DNA of 44,493 bases. It comes from a virus. The notes beneath the pieces were generated by a model. That model did not search any database, was not told where the DNA came from, and saw nothing but the letters and a program-made list of their open reading frames with translations. Location of the stretch: positions 1-44,493 of the IMG/VR virus record IMGVR_UViG_3300040815_002808. The stretch is one strand, 5' to 3'. Shown here in pieces: positions 1,126 through 38,794 of the stretch (positions are counted from its first letter, which is position 1; each line of letters opens with the position of its first letter). A program made the position numbers and the translations under genes.

Positions 1126-1254
1126 TTATCCGTTTTCGTTTTGCTTTTCTATATGGTTAACTAACATTTGAAAATATAAATCCCGTTCATAAGGCATTAA
1201 AGCTTCTATATCACTTATTGAATATTTATGGTGCTGAGCCAAGGAGAAAGTCAT
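1126..1254 (-). CDS. 51: gp51-like tail/baseplate hub assembly protein, probably made as a gp26 frameshift extension
   Basis: This short frame starts in isolation at an internal ATG (1254-1252) and gives 42 residues (MTFSLAQHHKYSISDIEALM...). It has no Shine-Dalgarno sequence. The same frame is open upstream through 1296 and reads YLVLSHLTLGEYYK before the Met, which looks like genuine coding sequence. The motif of a hydrophobic patch, QHHKYSI, and then an acidic amphipathic helix ending PYERDLYFQML is what I recall for the small gp51 proteins of marine T4-like phages, described as hub assembly factors. Because this frame is entered exactly where gp26 meets a T-run, I infer that it is mainly expressed as a C-terminal extension of gp26. 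A GTG at 1290-1288 is an alternative independent start. The frame is too short to recognise securely without its context, so the gene name is tentative. Confidence 0.6.
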   Translation of the reverse strand: MTFSLAQHHKYSISDIEALMPYERDLYFQMLVNHIEKQNENG

Positions 1255-1302
1255 TTTATAATATTCACCCAATGTTAAATGACTCAGCACTAGATAAAAA
1301 AA
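1231..1302 (-). promoter_or_regulatory. Predicted -1 programmed ribosomal frameshift site (T TTT TTT plus nested hairpin)
   Basis: Read on the minus strand, gp26 ends AGT TTT TTT ATC TAG. The seven consecutive T residues at 1302-1296 form the canonical slippery heptamer T_TTT_TTT in the gp26 frame. After a five-base spacer, GTGCTGAG (1290-1283) is perfectly complementary to CTCAGCAC (1238-1231). Inside it, AGTCATTT (1284-1277) is perfectly complementary to AAATGACT (1256-1249). The two arms share two bases, so they can stack as a helix of about 14 pairs with a 12-base 3' bulge and a 20-base loop. A -1 slip leads straight into the gp51-like frame. The elements are read directly from the sequence; function is inferred from the tail-chaperone frameshifts known in lambda and many other tailed phages. 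Confidence 0.75.
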
Positions 1303-1991
1303 CTTTTCATTCCTTCTACTACAAATGTTTTCTCGTCACCATTCTTATTTGTATAACTCATTTGGTGTCTAACTTTAGGCATAGTTTCAAAAAATCTTTG
1401 CACACCTTGCACAACATCACTATTCATATTATCCATAAATTCATCTATCTGAGCGTCTGTATAATCTTTAAAATCGTGAACCTCGTCTTCTGATGCAACT
1501 TTGTCCAAGCAAGAAGTCATAATAAAGTAATTTGCCAAAGGATCATTTTCTAATGTTTGTGCTATTTTTATAAACTGATCTATTGTAGGATATTTTAGAT
1601 AGAGCGTATATTCATCGTTGATTTTAATTTCTTTAGAGTGGCTTTTATCTTTGTAAACTGTAACATTATCAATATCAAGTTCCATAGGAATTTGTTCTTT
1701 TGTATCTTCGTCTGTTATCATAAATGAAACGTTATTATTTACTGATTTTGATCTTAATAAAAGTAAAATATATTCCAAATCAAACATTGAAAGTGTGCCA
1801 ACGTCTACGTTAATTAAACAGTTATTAATAATCTGTTTTGTTGCTAGTATTTCTTGTTCCGAATCGTCAGATTCTTGAGCAACTAAAAGTATTTTTTCTT
1901 CTTTTACTGTAAAGCCTCTATATTTAATTTTTTTGCCTGTCGATGGCAATTTCATTTCAAATAAAGGTAAGTCAATTTTGGGTAATCCCAT
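1290..1991 (-). CDS. 26: gp26-like baseplate hub / tail assembly chaperone
   Basis: This 233-residue protein is close in length to T4 gp26 (208 residues). The N-terminal segment MGLPKIDLPLFEMKLPSTGK, then IKYRGFTVKEEKILL and a conserved-looking CLINVDVGTLSMFDLEYILL, is the pattern I associate with gp26 of marine T4-like phages. T4 gp26 is required for hub assembly but was not found in the mature high-resolution baseplate, which fits a chaperone. The ATG at 1991-1989 has a clear AGGAG site about 8 bases upstream. The gene lies 18 bases downstream of the gp54-like gene and just before the probable tape measure. Its last codons fall on a T7 slippery run followed by a hairpin, so a fraction of ribosomes probably makes a gp26-gp51 fusion of about 290 residues. 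Confidence 0.8.
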   Translation of the reverse strand: MGLPKIDLPLFEMKLPSTGKKIKYRGFTVKEEKILLVAQESDDSEQEILATKQIINNCLINVDVGTLSMFDLEYILLLLRSKSVNNNVSFMITDEDTKEQIPMELDIDNVTVYKDKSHSKEIKINDEYTLYLKYPTIDQFIKIAQTLENDPLANYFIMTSCLDKVASEDEVHDFKDYTDAQIDEFMDNMNSDVVQGVQRFFETMPKVRHQMSYTNKNGDEKTFVVEGMKSFFI

Positions 1992-2786: not shown

Positions 2787-3401
2787 TTATCTTCCTCTAA
2801 TTATTTTTCGAGATTCCGCATATACTTTACTCTTACTTGCGCCAGAAAATCTTGCGGTTGGTAAAAACAAAGCTACATCCCATTCGGTAGGATTTACATA
2901 AACCAATTTTGTTCTTACGTGCTGAAAAAGATAATGTTTTATACAAGGTTTAAATTCCTTGAATTTTTGTGCAGCCGCAAGTGTTCCGTAATTCAACCTC
3001 AATCTTGTATTTTCATCATATTTATCATTGCTTATGGTATCATACAAAGCATCCATAAGTTTTGCTCTCAGTATAGGTGGCAGATAATGCATGTTAAGCC
3101 CTAAAAATCCACCTTTTGCTCGGCCTATGGGAAATATTAAAGGAAACATATCATAGTATGGTAACGTTTCTTTATTTTTAGGATCATAACTAAACATATA
3201 CATATCACCAATGCGAAATCTACCTGCGGCCTTATAGCGATCCGTTCCCATTTCTCTGACAAGCTTTTCGGGTGCGACTCTACCTTTTGAAACGGTCTTT
3301 GCTTGATTTCGATACCATTCTCTTGCTTTATCCGTTCTTGCAGGTACCTGCCCTGCTCGAATACCTTTCAATAGAATATCGTCAAAAACTTTTGCAACCA
3401 T
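2787..3401 (-). CDS. 2: gp2-like DNA end protector / head completion protein
   Basis: The 204-residue protein contains the sequence block GDMYMFSYDPK, then TLPYYDMFPLIFPI, then GLNMHYLPP, which I recognise from marine T4-like proteins annotated as gp2, the protein that shields packaged DNA ends from host RecBCD. The C-terminal part is basic (SGASKSKVYAESRKIIRGR), consistent with DNA or neck contact. T4 gp2 is longer (274 residues). Its ATG overlaps the stop of gp4 by one base (TAATG on the minus strand), which suggests translational coupling. In T4 genes 2 and 4 are also close neighbours, which supports the call. No catalytic motif is evident, and the function is inferred from family resemblance and context. 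Confidence 0.6.
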   Translation of the reverse strand: MVAKVFDDILLKGIRAGQVPARTDKAREWYRNQAKTVSKGRVAPEKLVREMGTDRYKAAGRFRIGDMYMFSYDPKNKETLPYYDMFPLIFPIGRAKGGFLGLNMHYLPPILRAKLMDALYDTISNDKYDENTRLRLNYGTLAAAQKFKEFKPCIKHYLFQHVRTKLVYVNPTEWDVALFLPTARFSGASKSKVYAESRKIIRGR

Positions 3402-3859
3402 TACTTTATTCCTAGTTCTTTTTCGGTCATAATTATAAAATCCCAGTTTCTATCCGCACAAAAATTCCTTGCAGCTTTCCATTTTGCCTCATTAACTCCA
3501 TATGTTTTTACCTCATTTAAATATCGTCTGGATATTCTACCAGAAGGTGTATTATTCTTCTTTTTAATATCCGGAGGTAACGTTTGTTTATATGGTTTAA
3601 TTTCAATCATTACAGTCTTGCGTGTTCCGTTTGGTAATTTTTTATGTACAACCACATCGGGATAATATCTATGCCTGCGTCCATCAATAGGTGAAACATA
3701 AGGTACTATAACTTCTTCAGATTGCCACCACAATACATCTGGGTGCTCGTCAACCGTACGAAAAAATTTAAATTCCCACAACGATCTATAGATAATTTTT
3801 GTAGGATCACCTTTGTATTTTGAAGGATTTTTAGGTCTAAACCTTCCTTTATAAGCCAT
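3401..3859 (-). CDS. 4: gp4 head completion protein with PD-(D/E)XK nuclease motif
   Basis: Starting from the ATG at 3859-3857 (MAYKGRF) the protein has 152 residues, close to T4 gp4 (150). An in-frame TTG two codons upstream is possible but less likely because relatives begin MAYKG. A PD-(D/E)XK nuclease core is visible: Glu29 in the LWEFKFF helix, Asp68 in HRYYPDVVV, and Glu86-x-Lys88 in MIEIKPYKQ. T4-type gp4 has been reported to be a nuclease needed for joining heads to tails, probably by trimming the DNA end after packaging. The gene is first in the minus-strand transcript, 43 bases from a late-promoter match at 3909-3902, and overlaps gp2 by one base. All three motif positions appear intact. 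Confidence 0.85.
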   Translation of the reverse strand: MAYKGRFRPKNPSKYKGDPTKIIYRSLWEFKFFRTVDEHPDVLWWQSEEVIVPYVSPIDGRRHRYYPDVVVHKKLPNGTRKTVMIEIKPYKQTLPPDIKKKNNTPSGRISRRYLNEVKTYGVNEAKWKAARNFCADRNWDFIIMTEKELGIK

Positions 3860-3880
3860 TTCCAAATCACATTTTTTTAG

Positions 3881-5626: not shown

Positions 5627-7104
5627 TGTCAGAACCTTTTAATCCATCAAAGGCTACAATTGTAAAGGCAAGACTCTTGCCATACAAAGATAACCCAAAT
5701 GTAGATGATAAAGCTTGGGTTGATATCTTGCCTCTAATAACACAATTTTCCTTGACACAATCCATAGAAAGAAATGGAATAGTAGGCTCTATACTTTGTA
5801 CAGATAAAATTGGATTATTAGAAAATGCACTCCCCACGGATAAGCAAAGACTAGAGCCTATCGAATACGCTAAAGCCAATCCTTTAAGAGGAGAGGAACG
5901 ACTAGAAATTACTATTAAAGCAGAAGATCTTGGCACAACTTTAGATTTAAGATTATTTGTTTTTAGAATAGATGGAGTTACTCCAACCTCGACGGGAGAT
6001 GGTAAAACCTTTAGGATGCATTTCATATCGGCAGTTGCATTTAACGCAATGTTGAAAAAAATAACGGAACCTTTTACTAATGTTTCTCAAGGATACATGG
6101 CAAGAAAAATATTTAGAAATAACTATTCTAATTTTGATAGATTGAGCCGATTTGAGATTGACGAAAACTTACCGTTTGGAAATAGTAATAAATTTGTTCT
6201 GCTATCAGACCGACAGAGATATTTTTATACGATGGAAACAGAAGGAACTGACAGGGTCATTATTCCCAATCTAAGCCCTGCTGAAGCAATGAATTTTGTT
6301 GCAAGAAGATCTTATAGCAAACAATCAAATTCTTCCCTGTTTAGATTCTTTGAAACCGTAAATGGATTTTATTTTGTAACGGACGAGTGGCTCATAGAAA
6401 AGGCAAAAATAAATCCCTCAGAAATAATAGAATTAGTATACGATCCTTATACGACATTAGATCCTGCCAAAGGCGGCACGGAAGCACAGATAAAGCAAAT
6501 TGAAAGTTTATCCAATCCTACAAGAGTAGATGTTGCAGAAGATTTATATTCGGGTGGATATACTAACAAAGTAACAGAAATAGATATTAATACAAAATCC
6601 GTTAAAACTTATGACTATTCTTGGGATACAAATCAGGCAGGTAAATTCGTTAATATGGATGGCAAAAAGCATGATATAGAAGATGATGTCCATTCCAAGG
6701 AGTTTATGAAAGATGCTTTTAATAAAGAAAATGCTAGAGATTTTATATTAGTTAGAGATTGGGCATATGACGGTGACAACGGCAGCACAGTAAAGCATTC
6801 TAATCTGAATAGACAGGAGATGATAAGTAAAAGAATTGCTTATATGCACCATTTATCCAGAACGCAGATTGATGCTACACTAAAAGGCAGACTAGACATT
6901 CAACCAGGCATGATAATAAATATTAATTTAACTGAATTGAAAAATAGAAATACAGTTAATAATAAAAGGTCCCAGCACGAACAGTTATCTGGAAAATATC
7001 TTTGCATTTCTTCTGAGCACCATTTATCTGACGATATTTTAGATACTAATTTAAGATTGACTAAGCTTGACTGGAATACCACAGTGGAGAATATTACAAT
7101 ATGA
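5626..7104 (+). CDS. 27: gp27-like baseplate hub protein
   Basis: The 492-residue protein begins at a GTG that overlaps the previous stop (TAGTG); no ATG lies near enough in frame to be preferred. The opening (VDILPLITQFSLTQSIERNG with ILCTDKIGLLENALP) and the late segment QPGMIININL, then LSGKYLCISSEHHLSDD, fit the gp27/gpD-type hub proteins, which form a trimeric torus that converts six-fold tube symmetry to the three-fold spike. T4 gp27 is 391 residues, so this one has extra sequence, perhaps around residues 285-380. The stop overlaps the gp5 start (ATGA), and the two products should form the hub-spike complex. The identification rests on hub-like features and on its place before gp5. Confidence 0.7.
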   Translation: MSEPFNPSKATIVKARLLPYKDNPNVDDKAWVDILPLITQFSLTQSIERNGIVGSILCTDKIGLLENALPTDKQRLEPIEYAKANPLRGEERLEITIKAEDLGTTLDLRLFVFRIDGVTPTSTGDGKTFRMHFISAVAFNAMLKKITEPFTNVSQGYMARKIFRNNYSNFDRLSRFEIDENLPFGNSNKFVLLSDRQRYFYTMETEGTDRVIIPNLSPAEAMNFVARRSYSKQSNSSLFRFFETVNGFYFVTDEWLIEKAKINPSEIIELVYDPYTTLDPAKGGTEAQIKQIESLSNPTRVDVAEDLYSGGYTNKVTEIDINTKSVKTYDYSWDTNQAGKFVNMDGKKHDIEDDVHSKEFMKDAFNKENARDFILVRDWAYDGDNGSTVKHSNLNRQEMISKRIAYMHHLSRTQIDATLKGRLDIQPGMIININLTELKNRNTVNNKRSQHEQLSGKYLCISSEHHLSDDILDTNLRLTKLDWNTTVENITI

Positions 7105-28552: not shown

Positions 28553-31500
28553 ATGTCAAAGATTTCAGAATTAGGTCCTATTACCGGCGCAAATACTAGA
28601 ACTGAAGATCTTTTTGTTATTGTTAACCTGGTTCAGGGTGACGACGGTACAAAAAATATTACAAGAAAAGAACTTGTTGAAGCAATTCAATACGAAATCT
28701 TTTCTCGTATTACTATTACTGGCGGAACCATTGCCAATGTGGTGATGTCAAACTCGACATTGAATACTGTAATTATTAACAGTTCAGACTTCAATTTGGG
28801 TGAGATTGATAGATCTTCTTTTGACCGTGGTACAATTAATGACTCGGTTATTACTGATAGTAGTGCAAACAACCTGGTAATAACAAATTCTACTTTCAGT
28901 ACGGGTGGTATTTCAACATCAACATTTGATGATGGTACAATAACAGATTCCACCGGCGATAATCTTACGATTACAAATTCTTCGTTTGCCACCGGCAACA
29001 TTTCAGAGAGTTCTATAAGCACTTCAGACTTTGACCTGGGTACAGTAACAAACAGTACTGCTAATAATTTAGTAATTACCAATTCGGAGATAAATGACGG
29101 CACCGGTAATAATATGGTGTTTACAAACTCTACGATTGACGATTCAACGTATAATAATGTTACTATCGACCAAGGTACTGCTAACGGACTTATTCTTACT
29201 AACATTGAAATTGATGAGTTACTTCTTGAAGATGCTGAGATTTCAAACTCTAGCATTACCACAACTTCTTTTGAAGACGGAACTATTTCAAACACAGCAA
29301 TTGATACTTCTACCTTTGTTTCTGGTCGGATTTTAAATTCTACTGCAAACACACTTTCAATTGATGATGGGTCATTTTATAATTCCACTGGTGAGAATAT
29401 TGACCTTCAAACTTCAGTATTCAATAACGGTACAATAAGTAACTCTGTATTAGCAAATAACGTAATTTCAAATTCTTCATTCCAAGGTACTATGGATGAT
29501 GTAGTTGCACAGAACATGACGATTACAAGTTCTACTGCAGCAAATACAGGTTTGACACAATCTACTTTCCAAGGTGCAATTGTAGACTCTACAATTTCAA
29601 ACACCTCTATTGAGGATTTGGATCTTGATAATGTTGTAATACGAAATTCTAAAATATTAGAATCCGAACTTACTAACTTCGACATGAATCTTGCTGATCA
29701 GTGGGAACCAAAAATGGACGAGGACTCGTATTTTGCAATTAAAAATGCAAAGACGGGTGACACAGAAAAGATTTCGTATCGTCAACTGTTCGATGAAGTA
29801 TCCAAAAATACTGAAAAGGCACTTAAAATTCATGTTGCCGTAGACGGTGATGATAGTAAACCAGGAACAATATTACAACCTGTAAAAACCCTCGAAAGAG
29901 CAGCAGAACTTGCATTAGAAAAAGCAGGTGGATCATTTAATAGAAACGGTTTGAATGATCCGGTTCATATTTCAGTAGGACCAGGTACCCATTATACAAA
30001 AGGGAATGTTGCATTACCAGATGATTGTGCAATTACTTCTACCTCAGGTCAGTATGCCACAGTAATTCAAGCACTGCCTGGGTATGAGATGAATAATGCC
30101 ATTTTGCTAGGGTCGGGCGGTTATTCTCAGGGCTTTTCATTTTTTAATTGGCAGGTAGATAACTTCGATTATCCTTCTGGTGGTTTTGCATATGCATATC
30201 GTCCAGGCGCAAAAATCTTGCGGTCACCATATGTGCGTGACTCATCTCAGTTGTCAAACTTTAATCGTCTCGATGTTGAACCTCCCCTATCTCCGTTTAA
30301 CACCAAAGGAACAGTTGCTGATCTTGGTAGACAACTTATAATGGAAGCTGGACACAGTGGTGCATTTACGGAAGGTGATGAAGTAACATTTTCTTCTGGT
30401 GCATTCGGAATCATTTCCTGGGACGACGATGTTGCATCATCAGACGAGGTATATGTTCGGAACTTAAAAGGTAACGTAGAGGTCGGTGACTACATCTATG
30501 CACAATCAGGTGGTGTTGGTCAAATTAAAACAGTAGGAATTGACGACTTCCCGAACCCACTAGTTGGTAGAGGCGGCGGTGTTGTTTTGGCAGATAGAAA
30601 ACAGCTCGATCCTGACTCATTATATACCTACTGGTTATGTTTTGGTGCTACTCCTCGTACTCAAAACGGTATCGGTTATGTTGCTAAAAACGGTGCTGGT
30701 GTTAACGGTATTGGTTCTTTGTCAATCTTTGTTCGTGTTGCTTTCTATGCGCTAGACGGCGGTCAAATGACCTTGAACAACTCTGGTACTCAGTTTGGTG
30801 ACATCTCGATGAGATCTAAAGGTTCAACTCAAGTATTCCAACCAACACTTACAGAAGCACAACTTGTACAGAATACTGTATTTGCTGATGCCATTCTTGA
30901 TAACGCTGGTCTTATTATTGAAGACATGGTTGATTATCTTACTGCGAACACAGCAAATGGTGGCCTTAATTATCAGGCTTATGACTCAGATAAATGTAAG
31001 CGTGACACAGGAATTATTATTGATAGCGTAGGCTACGATGTCGCACTAAATACAAATTATTGGGGCAGATTAAATGGTATTACATATCGTTCTCCAATTT
31101 CACAGAGAGTTTACGGTGAACAGTTAAACGAAACCGCTGGTGCAATTCGTCATCTGAAAGGTGAAGTAGAACATATCTTTAGAAATTCACAGGTTGCAGT
31201 TGTTGAAAGAGCAAATACATCCTTCAATGAAACACTCAATATTCTTGAATACGGCGAAGATTATGCAAACCCGCTAACATTTAGTGATACAGGAAACTCT
31301 GCACAGGTAGGTGCTCGTCAACAAATTCAGGAAAATAGATCGTTCATTCAAGATGCCCTTCTTGATTGGATTGATAATAATGAAGAATTTTATGCATATG
31401 ATAGCGGCAAATGTCGCAGAGATATTGAGGATTATATTCTACCTGCAGTCAAGTATGATATGTTACTTGAAACTAATTACAATGCGGTTACTGCTGGTAA

Positions 31501-34500
31501 TGCATACTATATGGGAACTGCACGGAAGGTAATTGGCCAACAGAGAAATGAAACCGTTGGGTCATTTGAATACCTTAGAAAAATTACTGATGATGTATTG
31601 CAAGCAAATTCATCTTCTGCTGCTGTTGCGACCTACGAATCATTCAATGAAATTATAAACATTTTGGATAATGCTGGAAAGAAATTTACTCCAGTAACAG
31701 CAGATTATAATCCAACTACTGGCTCTATGACAGTTAATATCGGGTTGCATGATTTACAGGTAGGTCAAAAAATCTTAATTGATCCAGAGAGCATGGTGTT
31801 TACATGTTCTGATGATAATTATGTTACCGAAATTTCTCACCCGAGACCAAGTGACAGAGTTGCATATCAACGACCATTGCCAATTACAGCTCGTACCGTT
31901 ACCACAATTACATTCCTTGTAGGTAAGGCAGGTGTACCATTTGCGCATAAATTTATGCGGTCGACAAAAGATTGTATTACACTTCTGGGTTCAAACATAG
32001 TATATAGTGATAATGCGGCACTTGACACAGATCATAAAAATGCCAGAAAACAACTGCAAACGAATAGAACATATATTCAAGATTACATGATGGCTTGGAT
32101 TGACGATAATTATTACATTTATGATAGTGATAAATGTCGTAGAGATACTTCACAGTATATTTTACCGGCAGTCCAGCGTGATATGTTATTAGGTACAAAC
32201 TTCAATTCGGTGCAAACTGGTGTTGCCTATTACACGGCAACTGCAAGTGAGGTTCTTAAAGATCAACTCGACCAGACTGCTGGCGCTATTACTTATCTCA
32301 AAGGTCAAGTAAATTCCGAAACACTCTCGGACATTTCTGCTTATGAGAAAACAAATGAGGCATTTGATAAAATCATTGGTATAATGTTAAATGCTGGAAA
32401 AACATATACACCAACAAATGCAGCATATGACCATATAACAGGCTTGATGGAAATTACCTTGGGTGACCATGATATTCAAGTAGGTCATGCAATTGTATTT
32501 GACGATTTGAGTATTACCTTCTCGTGCCCAGATGATCTTGGTAACCCAGTAGAAATTACTCATCCTAGAAAAACAGATCCTGCATATAGAACTGCAATGA
32601 AAGTATTGGAAGTAACCGGCACAACTGTTACAATTAACACTGGCCCTGCTGGTGTTGATAAAGTACATACCTTTGTAAGTGCTGCTGCGGATTCAATAAG
32701 GGTTTCAACATACACTGGTAAATATACACCACAATCTGCAACATATAATGGTGCTACTGGTGAATTTGTAGCTACCATAGGACAACACAATATTCAGGTT
32801 GGGCAATATATTGAAATAGCACCAAATAGTGTTGTATTTACTTGTTCCTTGGATAATAATATAACGGAACACCCAACACCAGCACCACATCATCCTGCTT
32901 ATAAAACTCCAATTGTTGTTTCTGCGGTAACTCCAAATTCGATTACGGTTAATGTTGGACCTGGTGCAGGCGGAACACATACATTTGTAAGAGCAGATGT
33001 TGGAGCAATCAATGCTGATGCTTTGATTTGGAGTGATCCTGCTAAATATAACAGCTATGTCACACCAACTACTGCCACATACATTCCGGCTACTGGCGTA
33101 TCAGAAATTACCATCGGTACACATACACTTACCACTGGTGATTTTGTTGAGATAATGCCATACAGCTTGACATTTACCTGTTCACAAGACAGTAATGCTA
33201 CTGAACATTCATATCCAAGAAGAGGTGATGGAAATTATAGAGTTCCAGTTGAAATTACAGGAACAACCTCTACTACAATTACAGTAAATGTAGGTGCTGG
33301 TGCTGGCGGAACTCACACATTTGTGAGAGCTGCAGCGGATGCAATCGCAATAACAAATACCTCTGCTAATTCTACGAATGCTAGAAAACAGATAATGGAC
33401 AATAAGGAATTCATTAAAGGCGAGGTTGTAGCATATCTGAATGATAATTACTTTACATATGACGGTGTTAGATGTGCAAGAGATACTGGACTTATTCTCG
33501 ATGCAGTTAGAAGAGATGTACTGACAGGATCAAACTTTAGTTCTGTCTTTGCCGGACTGGCTTATCGTGCCGGAACAGCAAGTGGTGATATTGTGGTAAC
33601 CGATCAACTTACAGAAACAGTTGGTGCTATCACGTGGCTGAAAGGTGAGATTGGCTCTAATATATCTGGTACATCACTGACAAGATCAAATGCCGCCTTT
33701 GACGAAATTATTGACATTATGAATAATGGACAAGGCAATGCAGATGCTATTTCATTCGGCACTGAAACTGTAGGTAGTACCTATACTGATGCAAGAATTG
33801 CATTACAGAATAATAAAGTATTCTTACAGGCAGAAATTAATGCTTGGATTGCTGTTAATTATCCTGACCACACATATGACACTGCAAAATGCGAACGTGA
33901 TTTAGGATTCATTATTGATTCCGTATCATTTGACATACAACATGGCTCAAACACAGGTTCTGTAAATAATGCCAGATTGTACTTCAATAAAGCCGTAAGT
34001 GTTTTACCCGAAAGCCAACAGTTAATTACGGCAGAAGCATTTGAACATATTGCAGAACTTGCTAGGAAACTTGTAAGAGGAGAGGATGTTACTGCATCCG
34101 TAGGCAATTTCCAATCAACTGATACAAGTGTACCTGCCGGTTTGACACCAACAGACGCAGATTATAACCATACTTCAGGCTATATGACTCTTACGTTTGG
34201 TTCGGCACACGGTCTGAGCGTAGGTGATAGAGTTAATTTTGATGAGAACTCTATAACCTTCTCATGCCCAGATGACCTTGGTAGCCCAGTTAATATTTCA
34301 CACCCACGTTCTACTGATCCTATTTTTGGTGATTCGGTTGAAATTACAGAAGTTACGGCAAATACAATTACGATGTATGTTTATCCTGCTAAAGTGGATA
34401 AGGTGCATACCTTTGTAAGTGCAACAACTGGCGGAGTTAAACCTACTGCATCGGGCCCATCACTTAGAACTGCTCAGTTATTCAATATCATTTCTGATAT

Positions 34501-37500
34501 GATCCGTGGGGATGATTTTTCTGAACTACCTGCTTATGATGAGCCAACAGTTACCGTTGCGGCAGAATATTCTTCAGCTGCAGAATATATTGCTGGCGCC
34601 ACAGGAAAATATCAAGTTGAAATTCTTGATTTTATAAATTCAGAATACAACGGCCTAGCATATGATGAAGTAAAATGCCGCAGAGATATTGGATATATTC
34701 TTGATGCAATTGCACAGGATATTGAATATGGTGGAAACGAGGCAACCATTACTGCTGCCAATTATTACTTCATTAGAGGCCAGCAGTTAATTGAAGAATA
34801 TCCTGAAAAGCAAACACTGCCAACAGGTTCAAATACTACAAATCTTTCATTGGCTGCCTATGACGGTCCCGTACCTAACTATTCAGATTATATTACTCTA
34901 GTTAACTCACTACCTAAATTACAACGTGAGCCAACCAGACTTGCATATGTTCATATGGCTGATGTTCTTGAGGATGTTGTCCAGAAAACACAAGTTACTC
35001 CATCGTTCGGTGCACAATTTACACCTACTAATGCAACGTATGACCCAGCAACTGGTGTATTTGTTGCTACTATCGGCACACACAGTTTGGTTGCTGGAGA
35101 TTATATTTGGCTTGCTGATGACGGAATTACGTTCAGTTGTGATATGGGTGCAGGCGGCGGTGTACAAAACCACACCTCTCCACAAGCACACCATCCTTTC
35201 TACAGACGACCTGTAAAAATTACATCTGTAGTTGCTAATACATCAATTACGATGAATGTGGGAACCGGTGGATCAGGTCAACAACCACATACATTTGTGT
35301 CGGCCGTTCCTAATGCAATCAGTGAAATAACAGGAGCAGTAAATGTTGTAGGACAAGAATTTAGAGGAACTGCTTCTGATGCTGCCACCGCACTTGTAGG
35401 TAAAAACTTAATACTTGATATTGCAAATGCAATTGATGATTTCAGTAAACCTGCTGACATTCCTGCTATATCAGGTGCACCCACAAGCAATCCTAAAAGA
35501 ACATATGCAAGAGAACAGATACAATTAAACAGAGATTTCATTATTGATGAGGTTGTTAGTTATATCAATGACCAATACTATACATATGATGAAGCAAAAT
35601 GTGCAAGAGATGCAGGCTTTATTCTTGATGCGGTTGCTAGAGATATTCTTACAGGTTCAAACTACAATTCAATTTACAGTGGACTTGCATACAGAATTGG
35701 CACAGCAGGTGCAAATAAAACTATTAATGAACAGCTTGCTGAGACAATTGAAGGTTTCAAATATGTCCAAAGAAAAGTAGAGGCGTCACTCACTGGCAAT
35801 GCACTTGCTAGAGCAACTGCAGGATTTACAGAGTTATACGATGTAATGACAAACGGAGAAACCGCTGCTGATGGTTATGTATTTGGTACTGCTAGTATTA
35901 GTACAAGTAACGGTAATGCTACTGCCGGTCTACAGGCAAACCGTGAATTTATGAAAGAAGAAATTGTTGCTTATATCAACCAGAACTTCGGTTCATTGGT
36001 ATATGACCAAAATAAGTGCAAGCGTGACACTGGACACTTTGTAGATGCGCTATCATATGATATCCAACACGGTTCAAATACTGGTGTTCGTAATTTTGCT
36101 AGACTATATTTTGAAAACGCAATAAGTGTTCTTCCTGCAGACCAACAACCTGCAACCGTAAGCGCATGGACTAGATTAGGTGTGGTTGCTGAACAGATTG
36201 TATTGAAACAACCTGTAACTGCAAGCCCAGGAAATGTAGTTATTCAGGATACATCTTCATTCGGTGGGACTACTGCTCCTATTGCTCAGCAAATTCAGGA
36301 TCTTACAAAAATTGTTTCTGATGCAATTGATGCAAACACTATTAGCCAATTACCTGCAGAAGTGTTACCACAGACCGAAAATTCAAATGCAACAGGCTAT
36401 GATTTAGAATATACCGAGGGTTATACAACTGCTGTTGCACTTAAATCAGTAATTCAACGTGACATTGTTGCTTATCTCAATTCCAAATTTAACTATCTGG
36501 AATATGACGAATCAAAATGCCGCAGAGATACAGGTTATATAGTAGATGCAATATCACATGACATTCAATATGGTGGCAATGCTGCTACAGTTAATGCAGC
36601 TGGTATATACTTTGAAAATGCAGTAAATGTTCTTGATCGTGACCAAAGGGAACCGACTAAACGTGCGTTTGAACATCTAGGTGAGATCGTAGAGCACATC
36701 ATCTATAATAATACAATAACACCATCAAGAGGAAATAACCAGTCTCAAACGACAGCTAATGTACCAGGTGCGAACCCTGCTAAACCAGAAATTGCAACTG
36801 ATGCAAAAAATCTTGCATGGATAATATCTGCAATTGCTGATGATGAAAATCCGGCAAATATTCCTGCCAGAAAAGATCCCGATATGTCTTGGGTAGGTTC
36901 AAACTATACTGCTGCAAAAGAATTACTCGATACAAACACAAATGAACTTGCAGAATCAGTAATCAAATATATCTCTACTACATATAAAGGATTGAGCTTC
37001 CCAGAAAATCAATGCCGCAGAGATATAGGTATATTAATTGATGCGGTATCGCATGATATTAACTACAACACAAACCAAGCAATACGTCAGTCTGCTCAGA
37101 TTTATTTTGAAAACGGAATAAGTGTTTTACCAATAGACACCAGAGAGCAAACAGCAGATGTTTATGAAAAAATGTCAAGTCTTATATCTGATGTTGTTCA
37201 GGAAATTGATACTTCAAACGTATCATTTAGTATTGCATCTACTCAGGATATCAGTGGTATTCCTGCAAATGCTAATACTGCAGTTCAGGTATCTGAATTA
37301 ATTGAAGTAATTGAACAAGTAATTAGAAATGACTCTACTGCTGTAATACCGCCACTTGACGAACCCGATACTTCTTGGGTTTCAGCAGACAAAGTATGGG
37401 CTGCATCGGCAATTGATGAAAATTCAGATACATTTGCTGACGATGTTCAGATATGGTTGAAGGAAAACTTTACCGTTCTCGATTACAACAAAGCAAAATG

Positions 37501-38794
37501 TCGTAGAGATACAGGTTATCTTATTGATGCCTTTAGCTTTGATCTTAATTATGGCGGTAATGCCGCATCAAGATGGAATGCTGATTTCTATTACTGGAAC
37601 AATATCTATCGTATACCGGAAGATCAAAGAGTTCCAACCGCACTTTCATATCGTCAACTTGGTAAAATATGTTCAGATGTTATTCTCGGTAAGGCAGTTG
37701 GTCAAGTACTTGAAGGAGAGAAAGGCACTGAGGTTGAAGCGGACAAAGTTAAGAAACTTGCCAATATCTTCTACAACACACAATATAATGATTCTACTCA
37801 ATATCTTCCAGTTCTTGAATATCCTAATTTCAATTGGGAAACAAATAAGATCTTTAACTTCTCAAGAGATATTCTTATCAGCCGTCGCAGAGAACTTCAA
37901 TCCGAAGTCGTACGCCACGTAAATCAAGAATATGGATTCTTAGATATAAATCTAGCTAGAAGAGATGCAATGAATCTTTTGGTTGCATTTACTAATGACT
38001 TTAGATTTATAAACACTTCACAGGCCGTGGCAGGTTCATACTTCGGTGATGGCTACGGTTCACAAAAATCATTGGGAGCATTTGTTGCTTCGTTCTTTGA
38101 CTTCGATGGAACACACGTATTCCCAGTGTTCAATCCCCCAAGTAACTATAAGGATTTAAGTTTCAAGGGTGCCGTAATTGATATAAATAATGTTATTACC
38201 GATGATATTAAACAAAATGATGCTTATATCCAATCAACCGATTATAATGGAAACAGATTTGCAGGTACAATATATGCCTGGGATCTTTCACTTAATGCTG
38301 GCGCTGGTGGATGGGCTAATATAGGAGCAAATAACGTGGATCTTCTTTACTCATTCTACAAATCTTTTGAGCGGATGAGAGATTACATTAATACTAATTT
38401 AACACCTGCCGATTCTAATAGCTATCACCAAGGAATGGTAAATGGTCTGTTCAATGATGTATTAATAGGAAATCTACTCAGACCTAATGTACTAACATTC
38501 GGAAGTCTTGTTGAATCCATTGCTCACCAGTTTAACGGCGCATCCGCAGGTGTAAACAGAACAGCACTTCCACTGAACTTTAGGAACCTTGGCTCGGCAA
38601 TTTCTGCTCTGGCATCTGTGCTTTCTGAGGACGGTGGACGGATCCGCTGGTCTGGTTCTGACGAATTGAATAACCAATACTTTGCTAGAGGTTTGAGAAT
38701 TAACGGTCAGACCGGACGGATTGAGGGTAGACCATTTACATCATCGGTAAGAAAACTTGCAAGACGGGCATCTAACAGTAGGGCAATAGTATAA
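28553..38794 (+). CDS. Giant 3413-residue repetitive tail fibre/appendage protein
   Basis: The N-terminus (MSKISELGPITGANTRTEDL) is the fibre-attachment type seen in marine T4-likes. Residues about 50-380 are a repetitive Asn/Ser/Thr-rich beta-helix with pentapeptide-like units (NSTFSTGGISTSTFDDGTIT). Residues about 425-765 look like a pectate-lyase-type beta-helix domain (HVAVDGDDSKPGTILQPVKT). The rest is built from two interleaved repeat families: about 11 helical units with a KCxRD core, and six beta units with an FTC/FSC core. The C-terminus is basic. Its size and repeats indicate a long host-contacting fibre or baseplate whisker. There is no sign of a frameshift across 10 kb. The stop overlaps the next ATG by one base. 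Confidence 0.8.
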   Translation: MSKISELGPITGANTRTEDLFVIVNLVQGDDGTKNITRKELVEAIQYEIFSRITITGGTIANVVMSNSTLNTVIINSSDFNLGEIDRSSFDRGTINDSVITDSSANNLVITNSTFSTGGISTSTFDDGTITDSTGDNLTITNSSFATGNISESSISTSDFDLGTVTNSTANNLVITNSEINDGTGNNMVFTNSTIDDSTYNNVTIDQGTANGLILTNIEIDELLLEDAEISNSSITTTSFEDGTISNTAIDTSTFVSGRILNSTANTLSIDDGSFYNSTGENIDLQTSVFNNGTISNSVLANNVISNSSFQGTMDDVVAQNMTITSSTAANTGLTQSTFQGAIVDSTISNTSIEDLDLDNVVIRNSKILESELTNFDMNLADQWEPKMDEDSYFAIKNAKTGDTEKISYRQLFDEVSKNTEKALKIHVAVDGDDSKPGTILQPVKTLERAAELALEKAGGSFNRNGLNDPVHISVGPGTHYTKGNVALPDDCAITSTSGQYATVIQALPGYEMNNAILLGSGGYSQGFSFFNWQVDNFDYPSGGFAYAYRPGAKILRSPYVRDSSQLSNFNRLDVEPPLSPFNTKGTVADLGRQLIMEAGHSGAFTEGDEVTFSSGAFGIISWDDDVASSDEVYVRNLKGNVEVGDYIYAQSGGVGQIKTVGIDDFPNPLVGRGGGVVLADRKQLDPDSLYTYWLCFGATPRTQNGIGYVAKNGAGVNGIGSLSIFVRVAFYALDGGQMTLNNSGTQFGDISMRSKGSTQVFQPTLTEAQLVQNTVFADAILDNAGLIIEDMVDYLTANTANGGLNYQAYDSDKCKRDTGIIIDSVGYDVALNTNYWGRLNGITYRSPISQRVYGEQLNETAGAIRHLKGEVEHIFRNSQVAVVERANTSFNETLNILEYGEDYANPLTFSDTGNSAQVGARQQIQENRSFIQDALLDWIDNNEEFYAYDSGKCRRDIEDYILPAVKYDMLLETNYNAVTAGNAYYMGTARKVIGQQRNETVGSFEYLRKITDDVLQANSSSAAVATYESFNEIINILDNAGKKFTPVTADYNPTTGSMTVNIGLHDLQVGQKILIDPESMVFTCSDDNYVTEISHPRPSDRVAYQRPLPITARTVTTITFLVGKAGVPFAHKFMRSTKDCITLLGSNIVYSDNAALDTDHKNARKQLQTNRTYIQDYMMAWIDDNYYIYDSDKCRRDTSQYILPAVQRDMLLGTNFNSVQTGVAYYTATASEVLKDQLDQTAGAITYLKGQVNSETLSDISAYEKTNEAFDKIIGIMLNAGKTYTPTNAAYDHITGLMEITLGDHDIQVGHAIVFDDLSITFSCPDDLGNPVEITHPRKTDPAYRTAMKVLEVTGTTVTINTGPAGVDKVHTFVSAAADSIRVSTYTGKYTPQSATYNGATGEFVATIGQHNIQVGQYIEIAPNSVVFTCSLDNNITEHPTPAPHHPAYKTPIVVSAVTPNSITVNVGPGAGGTHTFVRADVGAINADALIWSDPAKYNSYVTPTTATYIPATGVSEITIGTHTLTTGDFVEIMPYSLTFTCSQDSNATEHSYPRRGDGNYRVPVEITGTTSTTITVNVGAGAGGTHTFVRAAADAIAITNTSANSTNARKQIMDNKEFIKGEVVAYLNDNYFTYDGVRCARDTGLILDAVRRDVLTGSNFSSVFAGLAYRAGTASGDIVVTDQLTETVGAITWLKGEIGSNISGTSLTRSNAAFDEIIDIMNNGQGNADAISFGTETVGSTYTDARIALQNNKVFLQAEINAWIAVNYPDHTYDTAKCERDLGFIIDSVSFDIQHGSNTGSVNNARLYFNKAVSVLPESQQLITAEAFEHIAELARKLVRGEDVTASVGNFQSTDTSVPAGLTPTDADYNHTSGYMTLTFGSAHGLSVGDRVNFDENSITFSCPDDLGSPVNISHPRSTDPIFGDSVEITEVTANTITMYVYPAKVDKVHTFVSATTGGVKPTASGPSLRTAQLFNIISDMIRGDDFSELPAYDEPTVTVAAEYSSAAEYIAGATGKYQVEILDFINSEYNGLAYDEVKCRRDIGYILDAIAQDIEYGGNEATITAANYYFIRGQQLIEEYPEKQTLPTGSNTTNLSLAAYDGPVPNYSDYITLVNSLPKLQREPTRLAYVHMADVLEDVVQKTQVTPSFGAQFTPTNATYDPATGVFVATIGTHSLVAGDYIWLADDGITFSCDMGAGGGVQNHTSPQAHHPFYRRPVKITSVVANTSITMNVGTGGSGQQPHTFVSAVPNAISEITGAVNVVGQEFRGTASDAATALVGKNLILDIANAIDDFSKPADIPAISGAPTSNPKRTYAREQIQLNRDFIIDEVVSYINDQYYTYDEAKCARDAGFILDAVARDILTGSNYNSIYSGLAYRIGTAGANKTINEQLAETIEGFKYVQRKVEASLTGNALARATAGFTELYDVMTNGETAADGYVFGTASISTSNGNATAGLQANREFMKEEIVAYINQNFGSLVYDQNKCKRDTGHFVDALSYDIQHGSNTGVRNFARLYFENAISVLPADQQPATVSAWTRLGVVAEQIVLKQPVTASPGNVVIQDTSSFGGTTAPIAQQIQDLTKIVSDAIDANTISQLPAEVLPQTENSNATGYDLEYTEGYTTAVALKSVIQRDIVAYLNSKFNYLEYDESKCRRDTGYIVDAISHDIQYGGNAATVNAAGIYFENAVNVLDRDQREPTKRAFEHLGEIVEHIIYNNTITPSRGNNQSQTTANVPGANPAKPEIATDAKNLAWIISAIADDENPANIPARKDPDMSWVGSNYTAAKELLDTNTNELAESVIKYISTTYKGLSFPENQCRRDIGILIDAVSHDINYNTNQAIRQSAQIYFENGISVLPIDTREQTADVYEKMSSLISDVVQEIDTSNVSFSIASTQDISGIPANANTAVQVSELIEVIEQVIRNDSTAVIPPLDEPDTSWVSADKVWAASAIDENSDTFADDVQIWLKENFTVLDYNKAKCRRDTGYLIDAFSFDLNYGGNAASRWNADFYYWNNIYRIPEDQRVPTALSYRQLGKICSDVILGKAVGQVLEGEKGTEVEADKVKKLANIFYNTQYNDSTQYLPVLEYPNFNWETNKIFNFSRDILISRRRELQSEVVRHVNQEYGFLDINLARRDAMNLLVAFTNDFRFINTSQAVAGSYFGDGYGSQKSLGAFVASFFDFDGTHVFPVFNPPSNYKDLSFKGAVIDINNVITDDIKQNDAYIQSTDYNGNRFAGTIYAWDLSLNAGAGGWANIGANNVDLLYSFYKSFERMRDYINTNLTPADSNSYHQGMVNGLFNDVLIGNLLRPNVLTFGSLVESIAHQFNGASAGVNRTALPLNFRNLGSAISALASVLSEDGGRIRWSGSDELNNQYFARGLRINGQTGRIEGRPFTSSVRKLARRASNSRAIV
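30980..37980 (+). repeat. Tandem KCxRD helical modules in the giant fibre
   Basis: About eleven copies of a helical unit of the form YDxxKCRRDTGYIxDAxxxD occur between residues about 811 and 3010 (for example YDSDKCKRDTGIIIDS at 30980 and YDESKCRRDTGYIVDAISHD near 36508). Each has one Cys directly before the RD pair; the first is Cys815 and the last canonical one Cys2983. A degenerate twelfth unit near 37950 (LARRDAMNLLVAF) has lost the Cys. Copies differ strongly in DNA sequence, so this is an old protein repeat and not a recent DNA duplication. Confidence 0.85.
31683..35330 (+). repeat. Six copies of an approximately 100-residue beta module (FTC/FSC type)
   Basis: Copies start near 31683, 32404, 32722, 33055, 34140 and 35018. 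Each runs: YTPxxAxYxxxTG, a short strand ending in TIGxHxxxVG, then FTCxxD or FSCPDD, a His/Pro-rich turn (HPRxxDPxY), and a closing THTFV or VHTFV segment. Copies 2, 3 and 4 are nearly contiguous, and the others are separated by KCxRD modules. Each keeps one Cys in the FTC/FSC core. This looks like a small beta-sandwich used as a spacer or a surface-binding domain; I do not know a named family. Confidence 0.8.

Follow-up and report, generated by a model that had tools for sequence, protein, structure and literature searches.

The window analysed here is the whole 44,493-nucleotide stretch of an uncultivated viral genome (IMG/VR record IMGVR_UViG_3300040815_002808). Near one end of it, the minus strand carries gene 26, a set of putative recoding signals around the end of that gene and an open -1 frame (Table 1). 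A tail tube gene (phrog_45, E 5.2e-31) lies upstream of gene 26. The gene after the -1 frame is probably the tape measure gene, an assignment that derives from position, length and weak tape measure matches in relatives rather than from homology in the window. In relatives, this gene is of variable length (548-686 aa), and its start lies between -1 and 21 nt from the stop of TAC-C. Elsewhere in the window, the gene for a head closure protein (gp4-like, phrog_218; 3401-3865) also matches a TnsA-like endonuclease N-terminal domain (PF08722, E 4.7e-20), and an open frame of 3413 aa occupies the plus strand at 28553-38794.

Table 1. Positions of the genes and of the predicted frameshift signals in the window
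Feature	Position	Strand	Remarks
Gene 26, short form (TAC-N)	1991-1290	minus	233 aa, C-terminal end MKSFFI
GAAGGA, putative internal Shine-Dalgarno-like element	1316-1311	minus	ends 8 nt before heptamer; codon skew
Slippery heptamer T_TTT_TTT, in gene 26 frame	1302-1296	minus	in frame for a -1 shift
-1 frame extension (TAC-C, gp51 domain)	1296-1126	minus	56 aa, YLVLSHLTLGEYYK...NENG; stop TAA 1128-1126
Gene 26 stop TAG, which shifted ribosomes would pass	1292-1290	minus	
Stem 5' arm	1290-1280	minus	GUGCUGAGUCA; folding and conservation
Loop, 38 nt	1279-1242	minus	length constant in relatives
Stem 3' arm	1241-1231	minus	UGGCUCAGCAC; folding and conservation
Following gene, cut by window end	1120-2	minus	probable tape measure by position

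The gene 26 product is a homologue of T4 gp26, as indicated by profile matches to PF12322 (T4_baseplate, E 3.9e-53) and phrog_150 (E 2.1e-59). PF12322 is the family common to T4 gp26 and T4 gp51, and gene 26 of the window belongs to this TAC-N family; its description as a chaperone family follows Vladimirov et al. (2022). The window represents an uncultivated marine lineage, with a best gp26 identity to named phages of about 41%. The predicted structure of gp26 (mean pLDDT 82.7) matches other predicted gp26 proteins well. In a fold search of the PDB, the HK97 chaperone 2ob9 was among the first matches at a non-significant level (E 0.65, probability 0.47), and a PDB sequence search with the gp26 profile found no phage relative.

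The 3' end of gene 26 reads ATG AAA AGT TTT TTT ATC TAG. Re-reading of the window bore out the in-frame heptamer before ATC TAG that a preliminary description of this DNA had reported. The same description had proposed that the -1 frame is open from the slip site to position 1126, which was confirmed: the frame reads YLVLSHLTLGEYYKMTFSLAQHHKYSISDIEALMPYERDLYFQMLVNHIEKQNENG after the predicted shift, and its 56 residues match phrog_634, the baseplate hub assembly catalyst (gp51), with an E value of 9.9e-21. The predicted shifted product, TAC-N joined to TAC-C, would be about 288 aa long. The gp51 region is left unannotated in some deposited cyanophage genomes, including ACG-2014b (L184, KJ019043, record positions 5683-5829) and S-WAM2 (L185, KU686211), and other cyanophage deposits call it a separate gene.

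By itself, the heptamer is no proof, because T-runs are not rare in the window, even though TTTTTTY occurs there 21 times, below the expectation from shuffled sequences. As judged from the comparison with relatives, it is the fixed position of the heptamer, not a T-run as such, that counts against chance. The heptamer ends 3 nt before the gene 26 stop in all 80 IMG/VR contigs of the window clade, whose gp26 relatives are 59-100% identical. The 60 distinct genes among them carry TTTTTTT (45 genes), TTTTTTC (14 genes) or GTTTTTT (one gene), and some relatives have a run of eight Ts. Relatives that lack the T-run had been named beforehand as evidence that would weigh against frameshifting; the window clade held none, with only the one distinct gene starting with G. 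F231-F232 of gp26 are likewise unchanged in all 36 aligned relatives, and in all 80 contigs the -1 frame runs on for 54-61 codons without a stop. The type with G_TTT_TTT in place of T_TTT_TTT (L021, L025 and L026) has kept the stem and should slip less well.

The slip site extends far beyond this clade. A further 80 contigs closely resemble cyanophage P-SSM2, and all of their 74 distinct genes carry TTTTTTC at the same fixed place. Among 25 gp26 regions of named phages, 21 have T_TTT_TT(C/G) 0-6 nt upstream of the stop, and these come from many lineages (Kyanoviridae, Eurybiavirus, Emmerichvirinae, Mylasvirus, Otagovirus, Menderavirus, Pootjesviridae and others). The other four of the 25 are T4 and Serratia phage CBH8, both Tevenvirinae, which have no heptamer and have separate genes 26 and 51, and two Ackermannviridae, Vibrio phage YC (L089) and Serratia phage phiMAM1 (L181), which are without the T6 heptamer. 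Gene 26 has ATGTAATG at the stop in YC and GGTTTTC in phiMAM1; these two phages may use re-initiation or another slip site.

Downstream of the heptamer, the RNA is predicted to fold into a stem of 11 pairs, one of them G-U, which begins 5 nt after the heptamer and closes a 38-nt loop. The spacing lies within the 5-8 nt of dnaX-type signals. With dinucleotide shuffles as the reference, the folding energy of -22.6 kcal/mol has a z of -4.2; with synonymous shuffles, the z is -5.7. The preliminary description had recorded an outer repeat of 8 bases (1290-1283 with 1238-1231); the repeat is present, but its length was underestimated. An inner hairpin nested in it (1284-1277 with 1256-1249) had also been proposed. 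This repeat exists in the window, but neither its nested use nor its conservation is borne out: only 62% of its cells are paired in relatives (z 0.9), its bases 1284-1280 are shared with the 11-bp stem so that both cannot form fully, and the minimum-energy fold omits it. A pseudoknot between the loop and the downstream sequence (1267-1260 with 1226-1219) was considered as well and rejected, since the perfect 8-bp match in the window is fully paired in only 2 of 43 relatives (z 1.0).

Pairing of the 11-bp stem is conserved beyond what the encoded protein demands. In 43 distinct relatives, 92.2% of the stem cells are paired, against 19-53% when the partner is slid. When the codons of the -1 frame were exchanged among sequences so that the gp51 protein was kept, the pairing fell: 458 of 495 cells are paired in the real alignment against a mean of 435.2 in the shuffles (z 6.7, or 6.3 when only the nine inner pairs are counted, kinship being left uncorrected in both values), and none of 500 shuffles reached the observed number. 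One pair occurs in five types (U-A, A-U, U-G, G-C and C-G) and is unpaired in 2 of the 43 relatives; at least 15 changes at this pair are needed on the gp26 tree, or 13 without the two unpaired rows. The conservation of the outer pairing in relatives that the preliminary description had asked about is thus above the synonymous expectation. RNAalifold predicts 6 of the 11 pairs, and the stem is weak in one relative (L070). A phylogeny-corrected test of the pairs gave no significance, with too few independent contrasts on well-supported branches.

A third putative signal lies upstream of the heptamer, where conserved Glu-Gly codons are written GAAGGA or GAGGG in most genes (L001-L177). In the cyanophage-type set, Glu is encoded by GAG in 71 of 74 genes, compared with 24% elsewhere in the gene (Fisher p 8e-38, a value inflated by uncorrected kinship), and the three remaining genes read GAAGGG. 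The skew in the window clade concerns Gly, for which 43 of 60 genes use GGA or GGG, compared with 35% elsewhere (p 2e-7, also inflated by kinship). The upstream codons are also predicted to pair more strongly with the anti-Shine-Dalgarno sequence than their synonymous alternatives would. Codon skew and pairing energy together point to an internal Shine-Dalgarno-like element 8-9 nt upstream of the heptamer, in a dnaX-like layout and with a putative function in frameshifting.

The downstream stimulators of other lineages differ. P-SSM2 has a compact downstream hairpin (z -4.6 against synonymous shuffles) and S-PM2 has one of 14 bp (z -2.7). By folding, the downstream hairpin is weak or not evident in Aeromonas 65, S-SM1, ACG-2014b and RL2RES, which have the same heptamer. 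From these differences between hairpins, we infer that the stimulator has turned over between lineages.

The comparison with T4 bears on the function of the two frames. T4 gp26 matches PF12322 alone, while in T4 gp51 residues 1-201 match PF12322 and residues 147-246 match phrog_634. By these matches, T4 gp51 is itself a protein of TAC-N plus TAC-C and thus the single-gene counterpart of the fusion predicted in the window. With HHalign, the gp26 profile aligned to only 31 residues of T4 gp51, whereas the Pfam model spans the whole TAC-N part there. T4 gene 26 has kept Phe-Phe near its end, written TTC TTT, and has no slippery heptamer. Very probably, the short tail assembly chaperone of the window is gp26 on its own, and its long counterpart is the gp26-gp51 fusion. 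The proposal of the preliminary description that these two proteins are the G/GT equivalents and are made by -1 frameshifting is supported, in that the heptamer, the pairing of the stem and the make-up of T4 gp51 all fit it.

We consider it highly likely, from the sequence signals, that this one gene yields tail assembly chaperones of two lengths through -1 ribosomal frameshifting. In the proposed mechanism, most ribosomes would end the 233-aa gp26 (TAC-N) at the TAG. A minority would pause at U_UUU_UUU, where the 11-bp stem would hold them up from the front and the internal Shine-Dalgarno pairing would perhaps push from the rear. The paused ribosomes would slip back by one base at the Phe-Phe codons, pair anew there, continue in the -1 frame and add the 56-residue gp51 domain (TAC-C), giving the long form. 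Like lambda gpGT, the latter would bridge the chaperone-coated tape measure and the tail tube protein. The signals, their conservation and the domain make-up on which this mechanism is built were computed; that ribosomes shift here, how efficiently they do so and what the products do in tail assembly is inferred from them.

It is also conceivable, though quite improbable, that ribosomes terminate and re-initiate at overlapping stop and start codons (TAGTG in the window, TAATG in others) and in this way make gp51 as a small protein of its own. The GTG of the window does overlap the TAG, the overlap holds ATG in 18 and GTG in 12 of 44 distinct relatives, and cyanophage annotators call gp51 as a gene of its own. 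However, the overlap reads GCG or ACG in the remaining 14 of the 44, where the next start lies within the conserved domain, as far as 38 nt in. A separate gp51 start, which had been named in advance as evidence against frameshifting, is therefore not a general option. Re-initiation also leaves aside why the heptamer is retained at the Phe-Phe codons and followed by a covarying stem, and gp51 of T4 is no small protein but a fusion. Slightly less probable again is transcriptional slippage, in which RNA polymerase would slip on the T-run and mRNAs one base longer or shorter would fuse the frames. The seven consecutive Ts of the window and the eight of some relatives could serve this process, but the run is only T6C in 14 of the 60 window-clade genes and in every gene of the cyanophage type, and a conserved stem five bases downstream together with a Shine-Dalgarno-like element upstream suits ribosomal frameshifting. 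Least credible is the view that protein conservation and an AT-rich composition account for both stem and heptamer, with gp51 decaying or unexpressed: the stem arms do encode conserved residues (LCH and AQHH) and T-runs are common in the window, but the synonymous shuffles, apart from effects of relatedness, already contradict this view, and the -1 frame is intact in every window-clade relative.

With ribosomal frameshifting as the preferred reading, we lean modestly towards the following history of the signal across T4-like phages. The U-run would be ancestral and nearly fixed, and the RNA stimulator would have been rebuilt in each lineage, as a long-loop 11-bp stem here, as compact hairpins in cyanophages and as none evident in some. 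A selected internal Shine-Dalgarno element would be the third component, and the T4 subfamily would have lost frameshifting on duplication of TAC-N into genes 26 and 51. The window reveals no new mechanism. The analysis indicates that in many marine T4-like genomes the long tail chaperone is annotated as two genes or not at all, and the conserved signals are a well-supported guide to correcting these annotations. The constant heptamer and the hairpin that varies by lineage also form a good natural set for testing the roles of stimulators.

Vladimirov and colleagues reportedly concluded that several groups of T4-like phages appear to share conserved frameshifting and that T4 relies on its genes 26 and 51. 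According to Atkins et al. (2016, PMC5009743), G-T frameshifting is conserved widely among long-tailed phages, T4 being the exception. The PRFect report (PMC10885494, citing Vladimirov et al. 2022) states that some T4-like phages have short and long chaperone genes in place of frameshifting. PolyT slippery sequences in TAC-N genes of T4-like phages are known from PMC12846349, in the passage that cites Vladimirov, Gautam and Davidson (2022, Virology 566:9-15). From these statements it follows that a frameshifted chaperone in T4-like phages is, as a general finding, not new. The suggestion of the preliminary description that it had not been described for this family was largely wrong, since the latter two reports cite the 2022 study on T4-like tail assembly chaperones.

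The signal can be placed among known systems as follows. The E. coli dnaX signal consists of an internal Shine-Dalgarno element about 10 nt upstream, the heptamer A_AAA_AAG and a downstream stem. This three-part layout is common to dnaX and the window. The window differs in having a U-run, a Shine-Dalgarno-like element 8-9 nt upstream and a long 38-nt loop, and its shift would yield a longer, not a shorter, protein. In lambda, a single gene gives gpG and gpGT by -1 frameshifting, and both act on the tape measure protein (PMC5009743); the window would make its short and long chaperones in the same way. The slip site of lambda is GGGAAAG, which is not known to have a strong conserved hairpin, whereas the window has U6-7, a stem and a Shine-Dalgarno-like element. 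In Pseudomonas phage Adele and the Vandenendeviridae/Andersonviridae, a conserved T-rich motif, GTTTTT, likewise ends TAC-N and an open -1 frame precedes the tape measure; these are other phage families, and the available part of that report (PMC12846349) describes no stem. Closest are the T4-like chaperones of Vladimirov et al. (2022), which reportedly share gp26/gp51 as TAC-N/TAC-C and a T-run slippery site ending TAC-N, with T4 having its short and long forms as separate genes. The present analysis concerns an uncultivated marine lineage and includes tests of a covarying 11-bp stem and of a Shine-Dalgarno-like element.
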